Origin: a virus
DNA length: 22,639 bases
IMG/VR virus record: IMGVR_UViG_3300035212_000981
Span: 1 to 22,639 of that record
Strand: one strand, 5' to 3'
A model generated the notes under the pieces. That model was not told the origin of the DNA, ran no database searches, and saw nothing but the letters and a program-made list of their open reading frames with translations. The translations under genes and the position numbers were made by a program. Shown piece by piece: positions 1,071 through 21,080 of the stretch. The stretch's first letter is position 1. Every line of letters starts with the position of its first letter.

Positions 1071-1533
1071 ATAGTTCATTATCCTTTTTTAGTGGCTGTG
1101 CATCTGTTGTAAGAGCTGTAATATCAATTAATCCTAGGGCGGACGCAGTAGAGAAGGCACCTATAAGTGTAGACAAAGATATTGACTTGTACAACATATT
1201 TAATAAATCTGCCATTTCATCTATATCTTCATCTTCGGGAATACCATTCTCGCTAGCCTCGTATATAGCAAGAGAAGCAAGAACATTTGCTGCTATATCA
1301 GACATAGAATCAATAAAAGGTATTAATGGCGTAAGCTCTATTAAACGCTCTTCGCTATCTTGAGCCTCTTTAATGTTTCCCTCCTCGCTAACGGGAGATA
1401 ATCCAATAAAAGTGTCAACCTCACGGTCACCGTACCCAACGTCATGGATAAACCAACGAACCATGGTGCTAAGGGGGACTTCATTAGTAAATACTTCGTA
1501 CTCAACTTTTCGGCGTCGTCTAAACCAACTCAC
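1063..1533 (-). CDS. Hypothetical protein downstream of DNA polymerase
   Basis: I do not recognise this protein. With a GTG start at 1533 it has 156 residues beginning SWFRRRRKVEYEVF after the initiator. The N-terminus is strongly basic (four consecutive Arg). The middle is acidic (NGIPEDEDIDEMADLL) and the C-terminal third is hydrophobic and possibly helical (STLIGAFSTASALGLIDITAL). The GTG forms a GTGA overlap with the polymerase stop, and GGGG lies 9 bases upstream. An ATG at 1548 is in frame but only 2 bases from that GGGG and would overlap the polymerase gene by 19 bases, so I prefer the GTG. It is co-transcribed with polymerase and recA. Confidence 0.7.
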   Translation of the reverse strand: MSWFRRRRKVEYEVFTNEVPLSTMVRWFIHDVGYGDREVDTFIGLSPVSEEGNIKEAQDSEERLIELTPLIPFIDSMSDIAANVLASLAIYEASENGIPEDEDIDEMADLLNMLYKSISLSTLIGAFSTASALGLIDITALTTDAQPLKKDNELYE

Positions 1534-3509
1534 TTTGCATCGCCCCACTTCTGTACAACTTTAATATCCGCTACCAAAGGTACCGACAGTATATCAATAC
1601 CTTCCATCGCTTCGCGAATCGCCTCGCAGGTTTGGTCAACCAAGTAGTCTGGGGCAATAGTTACTAGTTCATCATGAACTGTAAGAATCAACTTAGACTC
1701 CTTTGGTAGTAAATCGTGTGCTCGAATCATAGCAAGTTTAATGATATCTGCTGCAGTTCCTTGGATACGAGTGTTAAACGCTTGACGTTCAGAACTAGAA
1801 CGAAACTTCATAACCCGAGAATCAATATCTGGAAGATAACGACGACGGTTCATAAGAGTAGTTACGTAACCTTTTTTACGAGCTACGCTTACTACTGTTG
1901 TTTTGTACCTTGAAATTGATGGAAACTTCTCAGCAAAAGCGTTTAACAACCCCTTAGCCTCCTGAAGTGTGCACCCAATTTGACTTGAAATCTTATCGGG
2001 GCCTACCCCGTAAGCCATAGCCAATACTAGTACCTTTCCCGCCTTGCGGTCTACCCCCATAGTGTTACCTACAGTTGTGTAGATATCGCCTCCATTTAAG
2101 TAGTTATCTATCATAATAGGGTCTTTAGACATAGCTGCGATTACCCTAGGTTCAATCTGTGAGTAGTCAGCCACAACTAACTTATGTCCCTCAGGGGCAA
2201 TAAATAAGTTACGAATCGCTTTACCATGAGCCGTGTGGGGCGCTGGTACGTTTTGAAGGTTAGGGTTACGGCTTGAAAAACGACCTGTTTCAGCACCCCA
2301 TTGAATAAAGTCAGCGTGCAAGCGACCGTTAACAAGCATACTTTCACGAGTTTCAACTTTAGATTTACCATTAGTTGTCTTAACTACATCTCCGCCTAAG
2401 TAGGGAACTACATAGGTACTATGCAACTTATTTAAGTCTGCGTAAGAGAGCATAGCCCCAACTAACTCATCCTTTTCTCGCAAAGCTTCTAAAGCCTCTG
2501 CGCTTACGGAAAAGTCTTTATAAGTTAAAGCGTCTGAGCCATCTGCGTCTAGGGTCTTTTTCCCTGAACCTGTGAGGAGGTCTGTACGCAAACCACGGCA
2601 TCCTTCTCCTTTAGGCCCATACAAAATCCATTGTTTCTCACTTGTAGAGTTCATATTAAACACTTGACCAGCGATTCGGTAGACCTCGGACTTCGTACTT
2701 TCAAGTTCAATCTCAAGCTGGTCATTTAATTCTTGAAGAGCCTTAGTATCTATGTTGGCTCCAGTAAGCTTCATGTCGCATAGAACACTTAGAACGCCCA
2801 TCTCTAAGCCCATAACTTTTACAACGTCAGCGGCTTCTAGCTTAGGCGCAAGCTCTTTCCATAAAAGAAAAGTGTACTTAGCATCAAGATACGCGTACTT
2901 CGCAACCTCATCAAACGAATAATCCTCAACCTTGTGCCCAATTCCCTTTTTCATACTAAACCCAAGCTCTCGCTGAAGGCAGTCGTCAAGGCCAAGTTTT
3001 CCGCGATTCTTATTGTCGTATAGGAATGACGCCATGAGGGTGTCAAAATAAGGAGCGCAAGGAACCGCTCCCCCAAAGTACTTAGCAATAGATGCCAAGT
3101 CAAAACCAAGATTGTGACCAACCTTTAGTATATTTGGATTAAACATAAGTGGCTTAAGAGCCTTAAAGACCTCTCCAGGAAATAACTGCTCTGGGGCAGG
3201 TGTGAAAATCTTTGTAGCTTTCTTATCATCACGAGAATAATCTAATGGACGGGCTGGAAGACCAGCATCTACGCGCTTTTGTCCTTGACCTGTCAGTGGA
3301 CGAATCAACTCTACAAAGTCACCGTTGGGGTGTCCCATAGGGATTACGTCACCGCGCCCATGTGTTGCTAGTGAAATCCACATAACTTCGTTAACCGCTG
3401 GTATTACACGAAGCGGTCCTACGGTTTCTACGTCGTATGCAAACGCATCTTGCTCAAGGTAATAAGCAACCATCTCATCTAGTTGTTCTTTAGTTGTAAT
3501 AATATTCAA
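1530..3509 (-). CDS. polA: Family A DNA polymerase with 3'-5' exonuclease
   Basis: Replicative phage DNA polymerase of the Pol I family, 659 residues. It has a proofreading domain but no 5'-3' nuclease domain. Exonuclease motifs seen: Exo I D26-V-E28, Exo II N133LGFD137, Exo III Y205AYLD209. Polymerase motifs: GRFSSRNPNLQN around 409-420, motif A D448YSQIEPR, motif B R488KAGKVLVLAMAYG, RRRYLPDI around 555-562, motif C VHDE 611-614. All catalytic acids are present. Aligning motif B with E. coli RRSAKAINFGLIYG puts Leu496 at the Phe762 position. The start is TTG at 3509, with GGGG 7 bases upstream (3517-3520) and no better in-frame ATG before Met13. A strong hairpin separates it from the upstream gene. 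Confidence 0.97.
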   Translation of the reverse strand: MNIITTKEQLDEMVAYYLEQDAFAYDVETVGPLRVIPAVNEVMWISLATHGRGDVIPMGHPNGDFVELIRPLTGQGQKRVDAGLPARPLDYSRDDKKATKIFTPAPEQLFPGEVFKALKPLMFNPNILKVGHNLGFDLASIAKYFGGAVPCAPYFDTLMASFLYDNKNRGKLGLDDCLQRELGFSMKKGIGHKVEDYSFDEVAKYAYLDAKYTFLLWKELAPKLEAADVVKVMGLEMGVLSVLCDMKLTGANIDTKALQELNDQLEIELESTKSEVYRIAGQVFNMNSTSEKQWILYGPKGEGCRGLRTDLLTGSGKKTLDADGSDALTYKDFSVSAEALEALREKDELVGAMLSYADLNKLHSTYVVPYLGGDVVKTTNGKSKVETRESMLVNGRLHADFIQWGAETGRFSSRNPNLQNVPAPHTAHGKAIRNLFIAPEGHKLVVADYSQIEPRVIAAMSKDPIMIDNYLNGGDIYTTVGNTMGVDRKAGKVLVLAMAYGVGPDKISSQIGCTLQEAKGLLNAFAEKFPSISRYKTTVVSVARKKGYVTTLMNRRRYLPDIDSRVMKFRSSSERQAFNTRIQGTAADIIKLAMIRAHDLLPKESKLILTVHDELVTIAPDYLVDQTCEAIREAMEGIDILSVPLVADIKVVQKWGDAK

Positions 3510-13058: not shown

Positions 13059-15623
13059 CTACGTTTTTGGTTGAGCGTAGTACACGGCTACTGTGCCGCC
13101 AAGGGGAACTTGGTCTGTTAGAGCCCCATTGGATAAACGATTAGATAGGACAGCGTAGTTTTTGTAGTAATGGCTACGACTAGCATTAGCTGTGCCCTCC
13201 CAAATAAAAGATGAACTTTCGGCAGAACCACCCGCTCCTGAAAAGAATGGAGAAGCAAAAGCTTTATTTTCAAATAAGGCAGAGTCTAGAAGTAGAGTGT
13301 TTGTAGACGCCGTTGCGAATGTAACTTTAACGGTTGCATAGGCCGCGGTACTTGGGGCAACAGCTGTTACGAAAGGGCGAACCCAAGATGCGCTCCCAGG
13401 GGCCGCTGTAATGGTTACCGTAGCCCCAGTGGATGTTGATATAACCACATTAGAACTGGTGTACCACGTAATAGATGGGGTGGCTGTGTTACTAGCGTTA
13501 GAGCTTTTCACATAAGCGCTAAATGTGTACTCAGTGTCTGGGTAATAAATTCCCATTTGTTGTGCAACAGTTGAGCCGTCCCAAGAGTTAACTACTACTG
13601 ATGAGCCAGATGCAGTAACTTCTAATGATGTGCTTGCTTTATAAAATGAACCAGTAACCGCCGTTCTAGCTGCTGTAGTAGAGCCTCCAGTATTGAAAGT
13701 TATATAAGAAGAGTATGAAAGTGACGCAGGTTCCCAGGTTAACACTGTGTAGACTCCGTTAGTAATTCCAGAAACACCAGTGACATATATTACGTCGCCA
13801 GGTACAAGGTCTGAGGTACGAGTTGATTCTAGTGTTGCAACACCAGCACCTAACGTTAGATAGTTTGCTGAATACAATGTTGCAGTAGGCTCAATTTGAT
13901 TTTCAACTACAACGTCAGTACCACCAGTTGTTACCCAAGGAGCAGCGCTAGTAGTTCCTGCAAAATGTGGGTTAATTAACTCATTAATATTGGTAGCAGT
14001 GGCAACCACACGCACTTGTCTTGCTTCATCAAAGTTTGTCGCAGTTGCTGATTGCTCAAACTGAGCGGCATCAAAGTAATGCCACTCATTGCTAGCAGAC
14101 CCCGCAGAAGATGCTATAGACACGGTAGGTACGGCATAGTAAGCACCTGTTGGTGCTGTCTTATTAATAGATTGAAGGCGGGTAGATAGCTGCCCAGCTA
14201 CGTTAGCAGTTCCAGTTCCAGTACTAGATGATAAATAAACACCAAAACGGTTATACCAATCGATACCTACTGTGATTGTTCTAGTAGTTCCATTTGCTGA
14301 TGTGTATATGCTAAAGCTGTACGCCAGACCTGCAGTTACTGGTATTCCTTTAGTAATTGCGTTAGAAGCTCCACAAGAAAATGCCACAGTACCGCTAGAC
14401 ACACTAGCGTTTCTAACAGCTAGTACACCTTTTTGTTTATTTGGATAGCCGACAGGGGTTGTTGTCTGGTTCCAAGGGGTAGGGTATGGAGAAATTAATG
14501 GGTATGAATCCGTACTGTTATTATAAGCAGTAGTGGATGGGACATTTGTTCCAGTAAGGGCAAAGCTAATTGTTGTTCCAGTAATAGCTGTAATAGTTAC
14601 TGTAGAAGCCCCACTATTAAATAAAGGTGCGCTAAATCCACTGGTATACACTTTTTGGCTAACTTGATAGTTATGTGCGCCAATAGTTAAAGTAGCAACG
14701 TTTGAAGTAAGAGCTAGATTTGTTACTTTATATTGTTTTAGACAGTATAGAGAAGCACTAGAGTTTGGAGAAGTCCAGTGTCCATTAGATTCTTCAAAAG
14801 AAGAATCGTTGTAATCAAGCATCAAGTTAGGGCCAACTGTTAGGCCCGTCACATGTGGGTTAGGGGCTGTTGATGTGCCCCCTACCTCGTACCCAGCGTA
14901 CGACTTAATAAACTCAACTAAGCCCTCCCCAGTACCACGTTCTTTATTTATAAGTACAGAGTTTTGCAAAAGTATACGAGACTGTTGAAGCCCAATCTCA
15001 GGTTCAAAAGAAAGACCAAATTGTTGCATAAACGTTGGGATTAGAGTTCCGCCTACTTTTTCCGTTGAATAGCGGTTTACAATAAGGTTTGTATATGTAT
15101 GAGATAGGTTTAGCTGAAATCCAAACAAAGATAAAAAGTTGTATAAGTCTTCGTTGTCTGTATCAATAAAGGGGTCGCCAAGGCTGTTAATCTTGTACAC
15201 ATTTGGTAAGTATTCATACAATAAGTTAGTGTAATTATAGTTACCTGAGGATAGGGCAATTACGTCTCCAGACCTTATCCATTTTTCAGAGTCGTTGTCA
15301 AATACAAATAATGAATAGTAATAAAATGTGTTTAACCCAATATTAGTGTTATCAATAAAATTAACAGGGTCTGTTTCTTTAAAAGCAAAGTATGTTCCAT
15401 CTTTAGAAATATCTAATTCAGCACCGTCCCAAGGGTCAATTGGAAAACCATAACTATTTCTAGTAAGTTTAATTCTTGACCACTCACCAAAAGGGCTCGT
15501 CCAGTTTATTTCAATACTTCCAAAGTTTTTAGAACGAGCCGTCATTGAATACGAAGAAAATAAAACCCCATCGGGTGGCCCGTAGGTTGTTAGAGCATAT
15601 AAATCTGAACCGTATAGTCCCAT
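13059..15623 (-). CDS. Tail/baseplate protein with carbohydrate-binding-like modules (receptor-binding candidate)
   Basis: 854 residues. About 20-125 looks FnIII-like (SIEINWTSPFGEWSRIKL). About 130-255 resembles the P2 gpI / T4-type tail-protein family that links the baseplate to fibres (NLLYEYLPNVYKINS, LVEFIKSYAGYEVGG). Then two CBM4_9-like jelly-roll modules follow, about 265-535 (ending WHYFDAAQFEQ) and 546-800 (ending TNTLLLDSALFEN). Each has a small beta module inserted near its start (303-366 and 588-658). The end FIWEGTANASRSHYYK is typical of phage CBM-bearing fibres. Likely function: attaching fibres and binding host surface glycans. Ser/Thr-rich throughout. The start ATG 15623 has GGAGG 12 bases upstream, rather far. 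Confidence 0.85.
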   Translation of the reverse strand: MGLYGSDLYALTTYGPPDGVLFSSYSMTARSKNFGSIEINWTSPFGEWSRIKLTRNSYGFPIDPWDGAELDISKDGTYFAFKETDPVNFIDNTNIGLNTFYYYSLFVFDNDSEKWIRSGDVIALSSGNYNYTNLLYEYLPNVYKINSLGDPFIDTDNEDLYNFLSLFGFQLNLSHTYTNLIVNRYSTEKVGGTLIPTFMQQFGLSFEPEIGLQQSRILLQNSVLINKERGTGEGLVEFIKSYAGYEVGGTSTAPNPHVTGLTVGPNLMLDYNDSSFEESNGHWTSPNSSASLYCLKQYKVTNLALTSNVATLTIGAHNYQVSQKVYTSGFSAPLFNSGASTVTITAITGTTISFALTGTNVPSTTAYNNSTDSYPLISPYPTPWNQTTTPVGYPNKQKGVLAVRNASVSSGTVAFSCGASNAITKGIPVTAGLAYSFSIYTSANGTTRTITVGIDWYNRFGVYLSSSTGTGTANVAGQLSTRLQSINKTAPTGAYYAVPTVSIASSAGSASNEWHYFDAAQFEQSATATNFDEARQVRVVATATNINELINPHFAGTTSAAPWVTTGGTDVVVENQIEPTATLYSANYLTLGAGVATLESTRTSDLVPGDVIYVTGVSGITNGVYTVLTWEPASLSYSSYITFNTGGSTTAARTAVTGSFYKASTSLEVTASGSSVVVNSWDGSTVAQQMGIYYPDTEYTFSAYVKSSNASNTATPSITWYTSSNVVISTSTGATVTITAAPGSASWVRPFVTAVAPSTAAYATVKVTFATASTNTLLLDSALFENKAFASPFFSGAGGSAESSSFIWEGTANASRSHYYKNYAVLSNRLSNGALTDQVPLGGTVAVYYAQPKT
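13650..13862 (-). repeat. Beta module copy 3 (tail protein residues 588-658)
   Basis: Encodes LTLGAGVATLESTRTSDLVP, then GDVIYVTGVSGITNGVYTV. The strand pattern (VAT-L, then G-x-I-x-V-x-G-V, then NGVYTV) matches copies 1 and 2. Sequence identity is lower than between those two. Confidence 0.4.
14526..14717 (-). repeat. Beta module copy 2 (tail protein residues 303-366)
   Basis: Begins ALTSNVATLTIGAHNYQVSQ. The eight residues ALTSNVAT are identical to those in the gp6-like protein. At DNA level 14692-14715 matches 15897-15920 at 20 of 24 positions. Confidence 0.6.
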
Positions 15624-15625
15624 TT

Positions 15626-17344
15626 TTAAATGATACCTCCACTAAATGTAAGTGAAAGGGCGCTTGCGTTAAGCTTAGGTATTTCGTTCGGCCCACAAAT
15701 AATGTCTTTTATATTTAAAGCAGTTACGGAACCACCAGAAACAACTGCAGATACCACGTTAGTAGCAACGCTAGAATAACTAATAGTGGTAGCCGCTACT
15801 CCAGTTACAACAAATGTACCATTAAATTCAGTACCTACGCCAGATACAGAAATTGTTTGACCAATTGTAATATTGTGAGTTGCTGATGTAGTAATAGTTG
15901 CTACATTTGAAGTAAGTGCTTTGTTATTTACCGTAAACGTTTGGTCCTGGTCGTTTCTAACAAGTTTTGTTATTTTAACTGAAGCTACTCCGTTTACTGA
16001 AGTAATAGCGCTTATTACGTCGTGTAAGTAAATTGTGTCTTGAAAAGCAACGTTTTCTAAAGCAAACAAAAGTGCAATTGCCCTTCTTGCTTCTATTTGT
16101 ACATTAATGTTTTTATACTTAGGCAGAATTGTAATTTGAGCAGTTAAGTCAGAGTTAACATAAAAAGCTGGTTGATATGTAACAGTAGTATTAGCTGGAA
16201 TTTTATCTGTTAAATACGTTTTAATTTTAGGAACTGTATTATTAAAGATTGTAGACGGGGTGATATTGTCTACTAAAACTCCAGGGTCTCCATAAGGTAC
16301 AAAAAAGACAGTTACGCTTGTGTATACGTCCGCTACAGCTGAAGCCTTTGCCACCCCTGCGGCTTTAACTAGGGCCGCATAATCCGATAGGGATACAGCT
16401 CTGTTAATTGTTCGTAGGCTTAGTGGGGCGTTAATGCGGATAGAATCCGTAGTTTCCGCATCTGTCCCGCCAGTAGCTGAGCCATTGTCTTCTGGGTTTC
16501 CATAAACTGTATTAAGTACCGTAAGCCCTACTTGATTATTAGTAAGTATGGTTTTAATAGTATTAGCGGCCACATTTCCAGATGTGCCCCCGCCCACACG
16601 GTATGTAGCGTAGATAACTGAAGAGTTTGTAGGGACTCGTCCGCTTATGTTATCTCCAAATAGAACATAAGAAACTCCAGCAGCATTGGTGTATAAAGAG
16701 AAGACTGCGTCGTACCCGTTATAGTCAATTAGGTATGGAACTTGGGTATACGTGACCCCGCCAGAAACTACGCTTACACTGTTATTAATCACTGAAGCCT
16801 GAGAGAGTTTGTAAACCTGATTTAACTGACCATTGCTAGTTCCAATAACCTCGTTGGACACGGTAGTTCCTTGGGATGCAGCGGCTTGAACTGAGCCATT
16901 TGTTGAGCCAACTTTTGCTGGAACTGTCGCTTCAGCTAGTGTCTCAAAAACAATTTGCGATGAAGCCGCATTTGTCACCGCTGTTGTAGCCACTTTGGTA
17001 CCTGCTGGTACTGTTAGAGGACTAGCTGTAGAGTTATAGAAAGTAAGGGTTACGTTAGCGGCGGTGTTTTCAACAGGCTTGTACCCTAAGATTCTGGCAA
17101 TCTGCAGTACGTTATCTCTTTGGCTAGCTGTACCTATAAAAGCTTCGTTAGCGGAGCGGTCAATGTAATAGCTAAGCAAGTCTCCCATATAGGAAAAGAG
17201 TTCAATAAGTGTCATGCCAAAGTCTGAAGGGTCTCGGCTAGTCCAGTTTGGGGCATACTCTGGGATAAGGGCAATCATGTCATCTCGTATGCTTGTAAAG
17301 TCACGAGAGGTGTAATCCACCTGTGGTACGTATTTTTCAGTCAT
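15626..17344 (-). CDS. Baseplate J / T4 gp6-like wedge protein
   Basis: 572 residues. The N-terminus (VDYTSRDFTSIRDDMIALIP, then SDFGMTLIELFSYMGDLLSY and IDRSANEAFIGTASQRDNVL) is the hallmark of phage baseplate assembly J/gp6 proteins. The central part TDAETTDSIRINAPLSLRTI and AVSLSDYAALVKAAG is also typical. It forms the baseplate wedge ring with the gp25-like protein. An extra beta module (474-541) is inserted before the C-terminal GPNEIPKLN. ATG 17344 has GGAGGT 8 bases upstream and overlaps the gp25 gene by 8 bases. The family call is firm. Confidence 0.93.
   Translation of the reverse strand: MTEKYVPQVDYTSRDFTSIRDDMIALIPEYAPNWTSRDPSDFGMTLIELFSYMGDLLSYYIDRSANEAFIGTASQRDNVLQIARILGYKPVENTAANVTLTFYNSTASPLTVPAGTKVATTAVTNAASSQIVFETLAEATVPAKVGSTNGSVQAAASQGTTVSNEVIGTSNGQLNQVYKLSQASVINNSVSVVSGGVTYTQVPYLIDYNGYDAVFSLYTNAAGVSYVLFGDNISGRVPTNSSVIYATYRVGGGTSGNVAANTIKTILTNNQVGLTVLNTVYGNPEDNGSATGGTDAETTDSIRINAPLSLRTINRAVSLSDYAALVKAAGVAKASAVADVYTSVTVFFVPYGDPGVLVDNITPSTIFNNTVPKIKTYLTDKIPANTTVTYQPAFYVNSDLTAQITILPKYKNINVQIEARRAIALLFALENVAFQDTIYLHDVISAITSVNGVASVKITKLVRNDQDQTFTVNNKALTSNVATITTSATHNITIGQTISVSGVGTEFNGTFVVTGVAATTISYSSVATNVVSAVVSGGSVTALNIKDIICGPNEIPKLNASALSLTFSGGII
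15722..15925 (-). repeat. Beta module copy 1 (gp6/J-like protein residues 474-541)
   Basis: Begins ALTSNVATITTSATHNITIG then QTISVSGVGTEFNGTFVVTG. It interrupts the normally continuous C-terminal end of a J/gp6 protein, between KLVRNDQD and DIICGPNEIPKLN. Confidence 0.6.
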
Positions 17345-17747
17345 TCTTTGATACCTCCAGTAGTATGTCGCCGCTTCGGCTTAGAACGGCTGTCTTAATA
17401 TTCACTGTTTGTGTTTGTTCTAGGTTACGGTAATTATATTTGATTTGTACTATAAGGTACCCGTCGTACTCATCTACAGACCCAATTACTTCTACCAAAA
17501 CTAAGTCTTTAAGCCAACGGCTAAAGGTAACCGTTATGCTTTGGCGTATGATTGAAAGGGCATCGCTAAGGTTTTCCCCCACAGTGCTGTGCACGTCGCT
17601 CCCGTAGGTGGGGCGCATAACGCGCTCCTTTAGTCCAGTCATAACCGCAATTATTACCCTGTCTTGCCAAATCTTTGCTGGGTCATTTGTCGACGAGATA
17701 GCCCCCGCTTCATTGAAGCTAAACGGTAGTGATATAGCTGAGTTCAT
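17337..17747 (-). CDS. T4 gp25-like baseplate wedge protein
   Basis: 136 residues from ATG 17747, which shares one base with the preceding stop (TAATG) and has GGAG 7 bases upstream. An ATG at 17765 would add six residues without an SD. The gp25/gpW-family core is seen: WQDRVIIAVMTGLKERVMRP, TYGSDVHSTVGE, then a C-terminal beta part (LVEVIGSVDEYDGYLIVQI). It is a lysozyme-like-family structural wedge component in contractile tails, with no catalytic role. It sits next to the gp6-like partner as usual. Confidence 0.9.
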   Translation of the reverse strand: MNSAISLPFSFNEAGAISSTNDPAKIWQDRVIIAVMTGLKERVMRPTYGSDVHSTVGENLSDALSIIRQSITVTFSRWLKDLVLVEVIGSVDEYDGYLIVQIKYNYRNLEQTQTVNIKTAVLSRSGDILLEVSKND

Positions 17748-18442
17748 TAGATAGCTCCAGTCCATAGTGGAAAGTTAGGGTCGCCGCCAAGAAATGAGGC
17801 CCAGACCACAGTTCCAGGTTTTGGTTTGTATTTACCGACAAGGTTAATTGTAGCGATAATACTAGGTACATCTGGCCTCGTAGGGGTTGTCAAACCTGTA
17901 TGTGCTACTAAGCCCACGGTAGTCCCCGAAGATGAAAAAACAACTTCTACGTAGTCGTTAGCATCTAAATCAAGGATATAGCTTACAGCTATAAGAACTT
18001 CGTTTGGGTTACCTTGCAATGTAACTCGGCTATTTGTTCTAGGAATGTCTATTCCATTTTTACGTAGCCAAACATCGGCTTGTTCAGAGCTGCTTCCCGT
18101 TTTAGCAACTTGTGCTGAAAATTGAAAAAAGTAATCTCCACTTTCTAAAACAGTTATTTGAGTAGTGTCGATAAGCTCTATGTTGTTAATATCTTCAATT
18201 GTATCAAAAGTAGCAATAGTGGGTACGTTGGCGCCAGCTACTAACTGTGTCTGGGTCTCTACAAACGTACCGTAAGGATAGTTCCATTGGGATATGGCCC
18301 CTCCTATAGGGCTTGCCCAACCAGTTACAGCCTCACCTAATATTTGTGGAATTTGCATAGTAATTCTGCCACGCTCATCTGGGTCATCGTTGTTTACGCA
18401 GATAGCTTGGTAAGTTCCATAAAACCTTTTGTCAAAGCTCAT
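17747..18442 (-). CDS. gp5-like baseplate spike OB-fold protein with C1q/TNF-like insertion
   Basis: 231 residues. N-terminal OB-fold segment 6-46 (YGTYQAICVNNDDPDERGRI, then VTGWASPIGG) is typical of gp5/VgrG spike proteins, and the OB fold finishes at about 206-231 with KPGTVVWASFLGGDPNFPLW. Between them, about 57-201, lies a different domain: ITVLESGDYFFQFSAQVAKT, VWLRKNGIDIPRTNSRVTL, VSYILDLDANDYVEVVFSSS, ending PTRPDVPSIIATINLVGK. This is the pattern of C1q/TNF-like jelly rolls common in phage tail and collagen-like proteins. There is no lysozyme domain and no beta-helix needle. ATG 18442 overlaps the hub stop (ATGA). Confidence 0.85.
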   Translation of the reverse strand: MSFDKRFYGTYQAICVNNDDPDERGRITMQIPQILGEAVTGWASPIGGAISQWNYPYGTFVETQTQLVAGANVPTIATFDTIEDINNIELIDTTQITVLESGDYFFQFSAQVAKTGSSSEQADVWLRKNGIDIPRTNSRVTLQGNPNEVLIAVSYILDLDANDYVEVVFSSSGTTVGLVAHTGLTTPTRPDVPSIIATINLVGKYKPKPGTVVWASFLGGDPNFPLWTGAI

Positions 18443-19782
18443 AGTATTCCTAGTTTCTTTGCAAAACGATTAGTTATAAAGACTGGGTTGTTTTGTTCAT
18501 AAATTATAGGGTCTAAGGACGTTGTATCTGTTTGCCACATGGCTACTTCGTTAGACCTACCATTAATGTTTGGTTTAGCTCTATTCTGTGGGTTACCAAA
18601 GCTTCCATTATTAGATAATGTTTCATACGCAACTTTTTTATTAAGAACTGTAATTGGTTGAACTTTTGTCTGAAGAACGTTTGGTATGATAGTTCTGCGA
18701 GCTCTAAACTCAGGAGATTCTACAGTTTTGCTGTCGGTCCACGCAACAGCTTGTCCTAAAGAATCAGTACCAACTACTAAAGTAGTCGTGTACCGTTGGC
18801 GATTAATTTCTTCTTCAACAATGCGATGATGGGTCTCTAGCACTACCCAATAGCCAGAGTAAGGCTCACCAATGCCTTCTAAGTAAACAGGCATATCTGG
18901 GCGGAGTGTAGGGTTTCCAAGGACCTCTACTGTCCCTCTATACGGAAAGTAGTTTCTGTTTTCAGCAGCTTCTGACTCAAACGATGCAACAGATATATTT
19001 GGGGCAACTACTGTAGTATCAAAAATATCAAAGAACTCATTTTGTTGTTTTATCTTTGTCTTAGCGGTTCTAATCTGTTGTGTTATTGAGATTGGAGTTG
19101 CGTTATCAATATCTACTCCACCTACAGCTACAGCGCCTTTAGTAGCATCTTCGTAAGGCATAGACTCGCTCAGTATTGGTCTAAATGAATAGATAGTTGA
19201 ACCTTCTGGGTTACCAGCTGGACGAAGGATAAATTTAGGAGCTTCTTCTCTTTTTGTAGTGTAATCTTCCATAATTGGTTGGAAGTAAAGTTCCGTGTTA
19301 TTTGCGCGCAGAGTGTAGCCACATTGTTTTGCCAATCGCACCATAAGTTCCCAGTCAGTGTGGCCTGCCTGACCAACTTGGGGGTACACACGGTTATGCG
19401 GAACGGCATAGCAAACAAAGTTGTGTTTAGAAGCAATCTGTTGTACTAACTGGTCCGCTGTTATGTCTTTATAAACAGTTTGTGTTTGTTGTTTCATAGG
19501 AAAGGAGGCGCCAATTAAAGTAACTTCTGTAAAGAACTTGCCTGGGGTTCTATTTAGTTTAATATGGTGCACATACCCATAAAGTTCTCTTTGCTCGTGC
19601 AGCCCTTTTATCGTTAAATGTACGGGGGACCCCGCCTTAACTACATCATATTGAACACCCCAGTCTTTAAACTGCAAGGTAACCATTTCATGGGCATAGC
19701 GCTTCTGTACAAGCTCAGCGCTGTATACCACTTGTGGTTGCAATGTAGTTTGAGGGAAGTTAACAGTAATATAGTTAAACAT
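18439..19782 (-). CDS. Baseplate hub protein (phage late control gpD / T4 gp27-like)
   Basis: 447 residues. The N-terminal half has the gpD/gp27 barrel pattern (MVTLQFKDWGVQYDVVKAGS, ELYGYVHHIKLNR, VTLIGASFPMKQQTQTVYKD, then ITADQLVQQIASKHNF and TDWELMVRLAKQCGYTL). The segment DWELMVRLAKQCGY is especially typical of the family. It forms the trimeric hub below the tail tube on which the gp5-like protein sits. The C-terminal ~60 residues are polar and likely flexible. Start ATG 19782 overlaps the LysM gene by 8 bases. The order LysM, hub, spike, gp25, gp6 is the usual one in contractile tails. Confidence 0.88.
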   Translation of the reverse strand: MFNYITVNFPQTTLQPQVVYSAELVQKRYAHEMVTLQFKDWGVQYDVVKAGSPVHLTIKGLHEQRELYGYVHHIKLNRTPGKFFTEVTLIGASFPMKQQTQTVYKDITADQLVQQIASKHNFVCYAVPHNRVYPQVGQAGHTDWELMVRLAKQCGYTLRANNTELYFQPIMEDYTTKREEAPKFILRPAGNPEGSTIYSFRPILSESMPYEDATKGAVAVGGVDIDNATPISITQQIRTAKTKIKQQNEFFDIFDTTVVAPNISVASFESEAAENRNYFPYRGTVEVLGNPTLRPDMPVYLEGIGEPYSGYWVVLETHHRIVEEEINRQRYTTTLVVGTDSLGQAVAWTDSKTVESPEFRARRTIIPNVLQTKVQPITVLNKKVAYETLSNNGSFGNPQNRAKPNINGRSNEVAMWQTDTTSLDPIIYEQNNPVFITNRFAKKLGIL

Positions 19783-20056
19783 TAGGTATTTTTAACACCG
19801 TCCCCGCTGGGATATTGTTGATATCGTTAATTGCAGGGTTATACTCAGGAATAATCCACCAATATTCTGGTCGGTTATAGTACTTAAATGCAATTTCGTC
19901 TAGACGCTCACCAGCTTTGTATACGTGCTCCCAATACTTGGTTAAGCCAAGGTTAGAGAATTGATACATTACATAAGGCTTAGATGGCTCGTTAGCTTTA
20001 GTTGAAAAGTAATCTATTGTTGAGTATTCATAACGAGAACCTTTGTATATAGACAT
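19775..20056 (-). CDS. LysM-domain baseplate protein
   Basis: 93 residues. The C-terminal half is a LysM domain: YKAGERLDEIAFKYYNRPEY, WWIIPEYNPAIND, IPAGTVLKIP (about 46-92). The N-terminal half (YEYSTIDYFSTKANEPSKPY) is polar. Small LysM proteins beside the hub, comparable to T4 gp53 or P2 gpX, bind the tube/baseplate interface and are structural, not cell-wall enzymes in this setting. Start ATG 20056 lies 1 base after the preceding gene's stop (20058-20060). Confidence 0.88.
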   Translation of the reverse strand: MSIYKGSRYEYSTIDYFSTKANEPSKPYVMYQFSNLGLTKYWEHVYKAGERLDEIAFKYYNRPEYWWIIPEYNPAINDINNIPAGTVLKIPNV

Positions 20057-20057
20057 A

Positions 20058-21080
20058 TTACTCTCCTGACGTCAATCCAGAACCAGCAAAGCATTGTATA
20101 GAAATGCCAACTTCGGTTCTAATAGGAATCATATTTTCTGTAAAAGCTGTGTGATTTAGACTTACATTTGATACCCAACCAACATATGAAAGGTTGTTCA
20201 AGGTAGGCCCAAGTTGAATTCCTAAAAGAGTTGGCGCTAGGTATCCAACATTTGCTGTTTGTTTACCCAATAGGTTGGACCACTGTAGGGTGCCGTTACC
20301 ACTTCCGTTAATAGCTTTAAAAAGGTACTCAAGGTCAGCCATAGTCCCCTGCCCCATTAAGTTAATTATTTGGGAGCCCATATCTTGGATACCAGAGCCA
20401 GGGTATGAAGAGTTATAGTACCTACTAAATTCATTGTAATTGCCAGCCGCAGCTGCCCTGATGCAAGCAAAGTCGTTAGTTCTATCAATTATTAAACTTA
20501 AATTTACAGTCTCTTGTCCTGGGAACACGCCAGCCACCACGCGAAGTGCATCAGCGTTTGACGGGGTAATGTCCATATTTCTAGACACATTAGTAGATAT
20601 ATTTGTTGGGTTCCAAAGGAATTGAAATCCCCAAGCAGTATCCACAGTAGAGGTGGCTGCGGATTCACCCTCCGCTGCGTTATTTAAATTGTTTACGCCA
20701 GCCCAGTACCATATGCGGCCACGGCGAAGGCCGTGGAAAGATGAGTCAAGGGTTCTACCAACGAAAGCTGGGTCGACAGTCACTGGGCGAATCGGAAGGC
20801 TCCAGTCGTGGGGAGGTAAGTTAAACTTATACCCAATAGGCTGCGTAATTCCAACTTGGTTAGCTGGAGGAAGAGACGAAGAGGTTGTCATAATAGCTGC
20901 TGATAAAACAGCATCAGATACAGAAACAACCCCTACAGCGGTGTTTGGAGTTGCGTTTAATGCAGCTTCCTCTATAGCGGCTAGTTTTGCTAAACGAGTA
21001 ACTGCAGCGGAGGTTGAGGTAGTTGTAGTTGTAGACGACACGTTAGAAACAAGGTCATTTGTTGTTGTTAAGTCAGCCAT
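20058..21080 (-). CDS. Tail tube/baseplate adaptor-like protein
   Basis: 340 residues. The N-terminal 70 residues are Thr/Ser/Ala-rich (NVSSTTTTTSTSAAVTRLAK) and likely disordered or coiled. The core has WGFQFLWNPTNISTNVSRNM, FPGQETVNLSLIIDRTNDFA, then MADLEYLFKAINGSG and a C-terminal VSNVSLNHTAFTENMIPIRT. The pattern 'FQFLWNPT.IS' followed by 'V.L.LIIDR' resembles contractile-injection-system tube-adaptor/LysM-family baseplate proteins that join tube and hub. The similarity is by eye. Located between tape measure and LysM/hub, which fits. The ATG shares one base with the tape-measure stop (TAATG). Confidence 0.65.
   Translation of the reverse strand: MADLTTTNDLVSNVSSTTTTTSTSAAVTRLAKLAAIEEAALNATPNTAVGVVSVSDAVLSAAIMTTSSSLPPANQVGITQPIGYKFNLPPHDWSLPIRPVTVDPAFVGRTLDSSFHGLRRGRIWYWAGVNNLNNAAEGESAATSTVDTAWGFQFLWNPTNISTNVSRNMDITPSNADALRVVAGVFPGQETVNLSLIIDRTNDFACIRAAAAGNYNEFSRYYNSSYPGSGIQDMGSQIINLMGQGTMADLEYLFKAINGSGNGTLQWSNLLGKQTANVGYLAPTLLGIQLGPTLNNLSYVGWVSNVSLNHTAFTENMIPIRTEVGISIQCFAGSGLTSGE

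Follow-up and report, generated by a model that had tools for sequence, protein, structure and literature searches.

A C1q/TNF-like jelly roll nested in the OB fold of a small, needle-less phage spike protein, at a site whose inserts are exchanged among relatives

The spike proteins of T4 (gp5), P2 (gpV) and R2 pyocin as well as VgrG belong to the same OB family, share its fold and have a gp27-like hub as partner. Not all OB spikes have a beta-helix: small spikes without one are known from Clostridioides difficile particles, namely CD1369 of diffocin and the needle tip gp63 of phiCD508 (PMC10996793, PMC11948020). In the cryo-EM structure of CD1369, the OB fold is made of residues 24 to 60 and 81 to 108, and the hairpin in between (residues 61 to 80), present three times, forms the spike tip with iron bound by histidines (PMC10996793). 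A C1q/TNF-like fold is found in the knob/petal part of the central spike of the Staphylococcus kayvirus phi812 (PDB 9eul), which is known to us by its title and by our alignment. The heads of BclA, BxpB, C1q and the TNF ligands are free or collagen stalked and occur on spores and in animals. In phages, variable C1q domains encoded next to tail fibers were proposed as receptor-binding proteins of marine phages (PMC3909814), the TNF-like domain of the Pam3 tail fiber was assigned to host recognition (PMC9608196), and carbohydrate-binding modules have been described in the spikes of Bacillus phages (PMC11406892).

Here, we describe a spike gene from the IMG/VR virus record IMGVR_UViG_3300035212_000981, of which positions 1 to 22,639 were analyzed (the window). 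The open reading frame at 17747-18442 (minus strand, as are all genes named below for the window) is intact and encodes a protein of 231 residues that, according to Pfam, AlphaFold2 (AF2) and VIA-align, combines an OB fold of the gp5/VgrG type with a nested C1q/TNF-like domain. Its start codon overlaps the stop codon (ATGA) of the gene for the gp27/GPD-like baseplate hub (18439-19782; PF05954, E 1.8e-5, below the cut-off; phrog_52, E 3.7e-14), which is syntenic with LuckySocke gp95. At its 3' end it overlaps the start of the gene for a gp25-like baseplate wedge protein (17337-17765; PF04965, phrog_43), and next to this lies the gene for a gp6/baseplate J-like wedge protein (15626-17344; phrog_219, E 6e-35; 34% to LuckySocke gp98), from which the neighbor tree used below was built. 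Thus, a gp27/GPD-type hub gene and gp25/gp6 wedge genes adjoin the spike gene, as is typical of OB spikes of this type. On the far side of the hub gene are genes for a small LysM/tail protein X-like baseplate protein (19775-20056; Pfam and PHROG profile matches) and for a CIS tube-like/tube initiator-like protein (20058-21080; PF19266, weak and below the cut-off). Downstream of gp6, an 854-residue protein (13059-15623) contains repeated segments resembling carbohydrate-binding beta-sandwiches (motif YFDAAQFEQ) and matches phrog_16363 (E 5e-10), a PHROG of unknown function.

The order hub-spike-gp25-gp6 is common to the window, its relatives and Streptomyces phages of the BRock/LuckySocke type. 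The closest deposited phages for the gp6-like, OB, hub and DNA polymerase proteins are likewise Streptomyces phages (BRock, LuckySocke, Alone3, pSt2308 and GiJojo), and the DNA polymerase I-like protein (1530-3509) is 39 to 40% identical over its full length to those of Borockvirus-like Streptomyces phages. Given this kinship and the shared baseplate order, an actinobacterial host is likely, as judged from sequence. A relative of the spike protein was not found in 84,980 bacterial and archaeal genomes, which therefore provided no prophage or host link.

A first-pass annotation of the DNA had assigned the two ends of the protein to an OB fold of the gp5/VgrG kind and the part in between to a C1q-like domain, and both assignments hold. 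The phage baseplate OB profile PF04717 matched residues 11 to 46 with profile positions 1 to 36 only (E 3.6e-8, two stretches), with a score of 34.1 bits that is above the curated cut-off of 23.8. The second OB piece, as seen in longer relatives, covers profile positions 48 to 73 or 74, and therefore the OB fold is split between positions 36 and 48 of the profile. After refinement of the boundaries, the first OB piece comprises residues ~6 to 46 with strands 1 to 3 (18305-18427; delimited by bare-OB orthologs and the model), the insert residues ~53 to 203 (17834-18286) and the second OB piece residues ~206 to 231 with strands 4 and 5 and the motif GDPNFPLW (17750-17827; delimited by alignment). 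The fold of the OB part alone could be examined in the ortholog of a relative (L094), which is bare, has only 81 residues, scores 53.1 bits against PF04717 and was modeled by AF2 with a pLDDT of 88. Its model aligned with the central spike of A-1(L) (VIA-align Z 11.3), the CIS spike of S. coelicolor (11.3), the baseplate protein Gp5 of P1 (10.0), chain B of the phi812 baseplate (9euf; 7.8) and T4 gp5 (7.7). The five strands of this ortholog are at residues 16-22, 32-35, 48-50, 62-67 and 75-80, and the insert of the window maps between the third and the fourth.

A PDB sequence search with the single spike protein gave chance matches only, and the BclA_C profile PF18573 matched residues 70 to 183 weakly (E 8.6e-5; 22.8 bits, below the Pfam cut-off of 38). 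The AF2 monomer, computed from an alignment of 43 sequences, has a pLDDT of 86.4 overall and mostly 90 to 97 over residues 61 to 200, and the insert is all beta in this model. In Foldseek and VIA-align, residues 53 to 203 fall on the C1q/TNF/BclA fold: Z scores were 18.4 for BxpB, 17.2 for BclA, 17.1 for the C1q domain of Caprin-2, 15.2 for the NC1 domain of collagen X and 15 to 16 for several TNF ligands. Over the set of C1q, TNF ligands, BclA and BxpB, Z was 15 to 18 over 123 to 137 residues, with an rmsd of 1.5 to 2.5 Å in most rows. Phage structures matched as well, namely the phi812 central spike (9eul, residues 467 to 608; Z 16.3 over 136 residues), the portal-tail complex of cyanophage A4 (16.0) and the cell-binding domain (CBD) of the A-1(L) short tail fiber (15.4). 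The insert is thus, by its model, a jelly roll with C1q/TNF topology. An ordinary OB fold or a beta-helix, named beforehand as the outcomes that would speak against a jelly roll, are ruled out by this alignment of residues 53 to 203 to C1q/TNF/BclA folds with Z scores of 15 to 18. Hence, the spike protein is confirmed as a gp5/VgrG-type OB protein with a jelly roll nested between OB strands 3 and 4.

This architecture differs from each of the systems described above. Unlike the phi812 spike, which is large and multidomain (382 residues are modeled for knob and petals alone), the window protein has 231 residues in total, its jelly roll lies within the OB fold, and there is no separate knob or beta-helix. 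BclA and BxpB share the fold of the insert (Z 17 to 18) and the weak BclA_C match, but their heads are not enclosed by a phage OB fold. In contrast to T4 gp5, P2 gpV, the R2 pyocin spike and VgrG, the window spike has no lysozyme, beta-helix or PAAR partner, and its extra domain is inside the OB fold and not after it. As in diffocin, a module sits within the OB fold, here between strands 3 and 4, and by analogy it may form the tip; however, the diffocin and phiCD508 tips are short metal-binding histidine hairpins and the window insert is a C1q-like domain of 150 residues. HxH motifs, as expected for a histidine-coordinated metal tip of the diffocin type, were not found in the window spike protein. 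By sequence, the spikes of phiC2 and Jimmer2 belong to DUF2577 and not, as the window spike, to PF04717. In DUF2577 spikes of Gram-positive phages (Jimmer2, PVJ1), an HxH segment lies just upstream of the last two strands (K.GD..LL....GGQ.Y..LDR) and aligns to the place of the window insert, although the alignment is weak and the sequence families differ; the HxH hairpin is absent from the DUF2577 homolog of phiC2.

The same full-length layout exists in A0A6J7WM73 (BFVD/UniProt; uncultured Caudovirales phage; 235 residues, 36% identity), which is titled as OB-fold only, with the insert unnamed. In cultured phages, a full-length relative was not found, and the domain alone matched. The cultured phages BRock (gp130; L156:8007-8636) and LuckySocke (gp96; L157:8007-8609) have syntenic, needle-less OB orthologs with an extra domain, but this domain is C-terminal, has ~125 residues and gave no Pfam match. 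There are therefore precedents both for a central spike with a C1q-like domain (phi812) and for the layout itself (UniProt); for the nested form or an exchangeable slot we found no published description in our literature search, nor a paper joining C1q, baseplate, OB-fold and phage. The first-pass annotation had considered the arrangement unusual, which has to be toned down in view of the phi812 spike and the beta-helix-less spikes of phiCD508 and diffocin.

It had also stated that the usual lysozyme and needle are missing, and this was borne out. Only four residues follow the GDPNFPLW motif, the protein has neither lysozyme nor beta-helix, and nine relatives on contigs of 60 to 98 kb, which may be incomplete, encode one PF04717 protein each and no detectable PAAR protein. 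In light of the Clostridioides difficile spikes, the missing beta-helix excludes the T4/P2-like subtype only. Not supported is the idea that the jelly roll is an alternative solution for piercing: a globular head makes a poor piercing tip, relatives with a bare OB do without one, and wall cutting can happen outside the spike, as indicated by the probable tape-measure protein of one relative (L057:601-2973; 791 residues, in the presumed tape-measure position), which contains an M23 peptidase domain (E 2.2e-31). The M23 domain was not found in the corresponding protein of another relative (L025).

A scan of IMG/VR with the whole spike protein retrieved 196 stretches coding for a relative. Among the 80 best of these were 47 distinct full-length versions, including that of the window. 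In their alignment, pairs of versions are on average 53% and 66% identical in the two OB pieces and 36% identical in the insert, and GDPNFPLW is invariant. A second scan with the OB part as the query revealed the same gene in other forms, whose insert classes were assigned by HMM. At least 53 of 78 distinct members in IMG/VR carry the C1q-like insert. Nine members are bare OB proteins of 77 to 89 residues (L091, L094, L104, L119, L120, L124, L125, L133 and L149), and ten have, at the same site, a histidine-rich insert that is 94 to 119 residues long (L115, L121, L122, L126, L130, L131, L138, L151, L153 and L154). The histidine-rich inserts hold one to three HxH motifs each, and perhaps they bind metal and form a tip of the diffocin kind; this is only a suggestion, because the enrichment of HxH over shuffles is not significant and the motif is no more frequent than composition predicts.

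Other modules are attached to the end of the OB protein: a C1q-like domain in L132:3980-4711 (E 1.9e-41), the same module thus occurring in two positions, a tail collar domain in L135:3980-4585 (PF07484, E 1.2e-17) and a long fiber-like C terminus in L116:3980-5005. Such fusions would also be expected if the OB protein were a peripheral adaptor instead of a spike and held a C1q-like fiber head at the rim of the baseplate. We consider this very improbable, since the gene directly follows that of the gp27-like hub and precedes gp25 and gp6, the nine long relatives have a single PF04717 copy each, and the best fold matches are central spikes. More credit, though still little, is due to the view that the domain is a decorative adhesin, a moron-like mobile unit of weak, nonspecific adhesion comparable to Ig-like or carbohydrate-binding domains, for which the spike is one landing site of many. 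The same domain family is present in fiber-like proteins of other phages (34 to 38% identity), the domain is optional by phylogeny, and its C-terminal position in L132 fits as well. However, the insertion point is single and constant, being common to 53 inserts, and the OB boundaries are clean, which indicates that the site serves a purpose tied to the spike. In a tree of OB inserts and fiber domains, the OB inserts required only three changes, and a single origin fits; several captures from fibers are not claimed, since the insert tree demands no more than one origin.

The distribution of the insert was analyzed on the tree of the gp6-like protein, where the nearest kin of the window, L125 and L149, are both bare OB. 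Presence and absence of the C1q-like insert requires 11 changes on this tree, at least nine of them on well-supported branches, and the four insert labels together require 12, compared to a minimum of 3 and a mean of 22.8 after shuffling; exchange is therefore frequent yet not free, because the labels are still clustered. Among three close relatives (L002, L029 and L142), gp6 is 95 to 96%, gp25 91 to 93% and gp27 95% (L002/L142) identical, but the inserts are only 29 to 35% identical, and L005 and L104 are 93 to 99% identical outside the insert, yet one of them has none. Conversely, diverged OB parts share recently exchanged inserts: dS was 1.25 in the OB part and 0.19 in the insert for L030/L033, and 1.22 and 0.35 for L038/L044; the pattern was reversed for L022/L027 (0.50 and 2.2). 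Synonymous divergence that differs between OB and insert of one and the same gene confirms the behavior of a cassette, which is exchanged and lost among close relatives. The insert is dispensable for the basic function, given that numerous relatives lack it, the two closest to the window among them. In closely related pairs, dN was well below dS in the OB part, and in the insert it was equal to dS or lower, indicating that the domain is kept by selection; this selection is purifying and not diversifying among inserts of one type. Together with the 47 full-length versions of the first scan, it speaks against a chance arrangement.

What does the insert do? Binding to the host surface is favored by the way in which the inserts are exchanged and by the occurrence of the fold in the proposed receptor-binding proteins of marine phages and in the tail fiber of Pam3; this role, which the first-pass annotation had proposed, is thereby supported indirectly. 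Binding by a C1q-like domain is not automatic, as the CBD of the A-1(L) short tail fiber alone bound no cells and stem plus CBD did (PMC10966104). For the axial placement of the jelly roll at the baseplate, also proposed before, support is indirect and comes from the tip of the diffocin spike, which is an OB insertion too. We find it slightly more probable than not that this protein of a contractile-tailed phage acts as its central spike, with a C1q/TNF-like head in place of the usual tip, and that this head is a coaxial trimer that touches or binds the host surface.

The main rival to such surface binding is a purely structural role, in which the C1q-like trimer clamps or plugs the tiny OB spike, stabilizes it and closes the end of the tube before infection, with no part in host recognition. 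C1q/TNF folds are stable trimers, and the bare OB of only ~80 residues is without the beta-helix that clamps other spikes. In addition, the diffocin and phiCD508 tips are stabilized by metal (PMC10996793, PMC11948020), and relatives have histidine-rich inserts at the same site. However, some close relatives manage with a bare OB ortholog and hence without a clamp (L125 and L149 next to the window; L005/L104), and a mere clamp is not expected to swap so often between closely related phages. We therefore regard a structural cap as possible but rather unlikely.

In our model of a surface-binding head, three OB domains would sit on the trimer of the gp27-like hub, and their loops between strands 3 and 4 would come together distally on the axis, in the manner of the diffocin tip hairpins. 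The three C1q-like domains would associate as a trimer of the usual C1q/TNF type that is coaxial with the tube, and this head would make contact with the cell before any other part of the tail axis. Binding to a surface polymer, a glycan or a protein, could then center and seat the baseplate. Once the sheath has contracted, the head may enter the wall with the tube or be shed. Cutting of the wall would be left to enzymes located elsewhere, such as the M23 peptidase domain of the probable tape-measure protein in L057. The cassette would be exchanged because the surface read by the head varies between hosts.

In sum, the findings lead to a testable statement on contractile tails: besides the fibers, the axial spike can carry an exchangeable recognition module. 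The very small OB fold of the spike has a natural insertion site that tolerates a domain of 150 residues, and the bare, C1q-like and histidine-rich versions in close relatives are ready-made controls. Furthermore, the data suggest that counterparts of the needle-less spikes known from Clostridioides difficile particles exist in a large group of uncultured phages related to Streptomyces phages.
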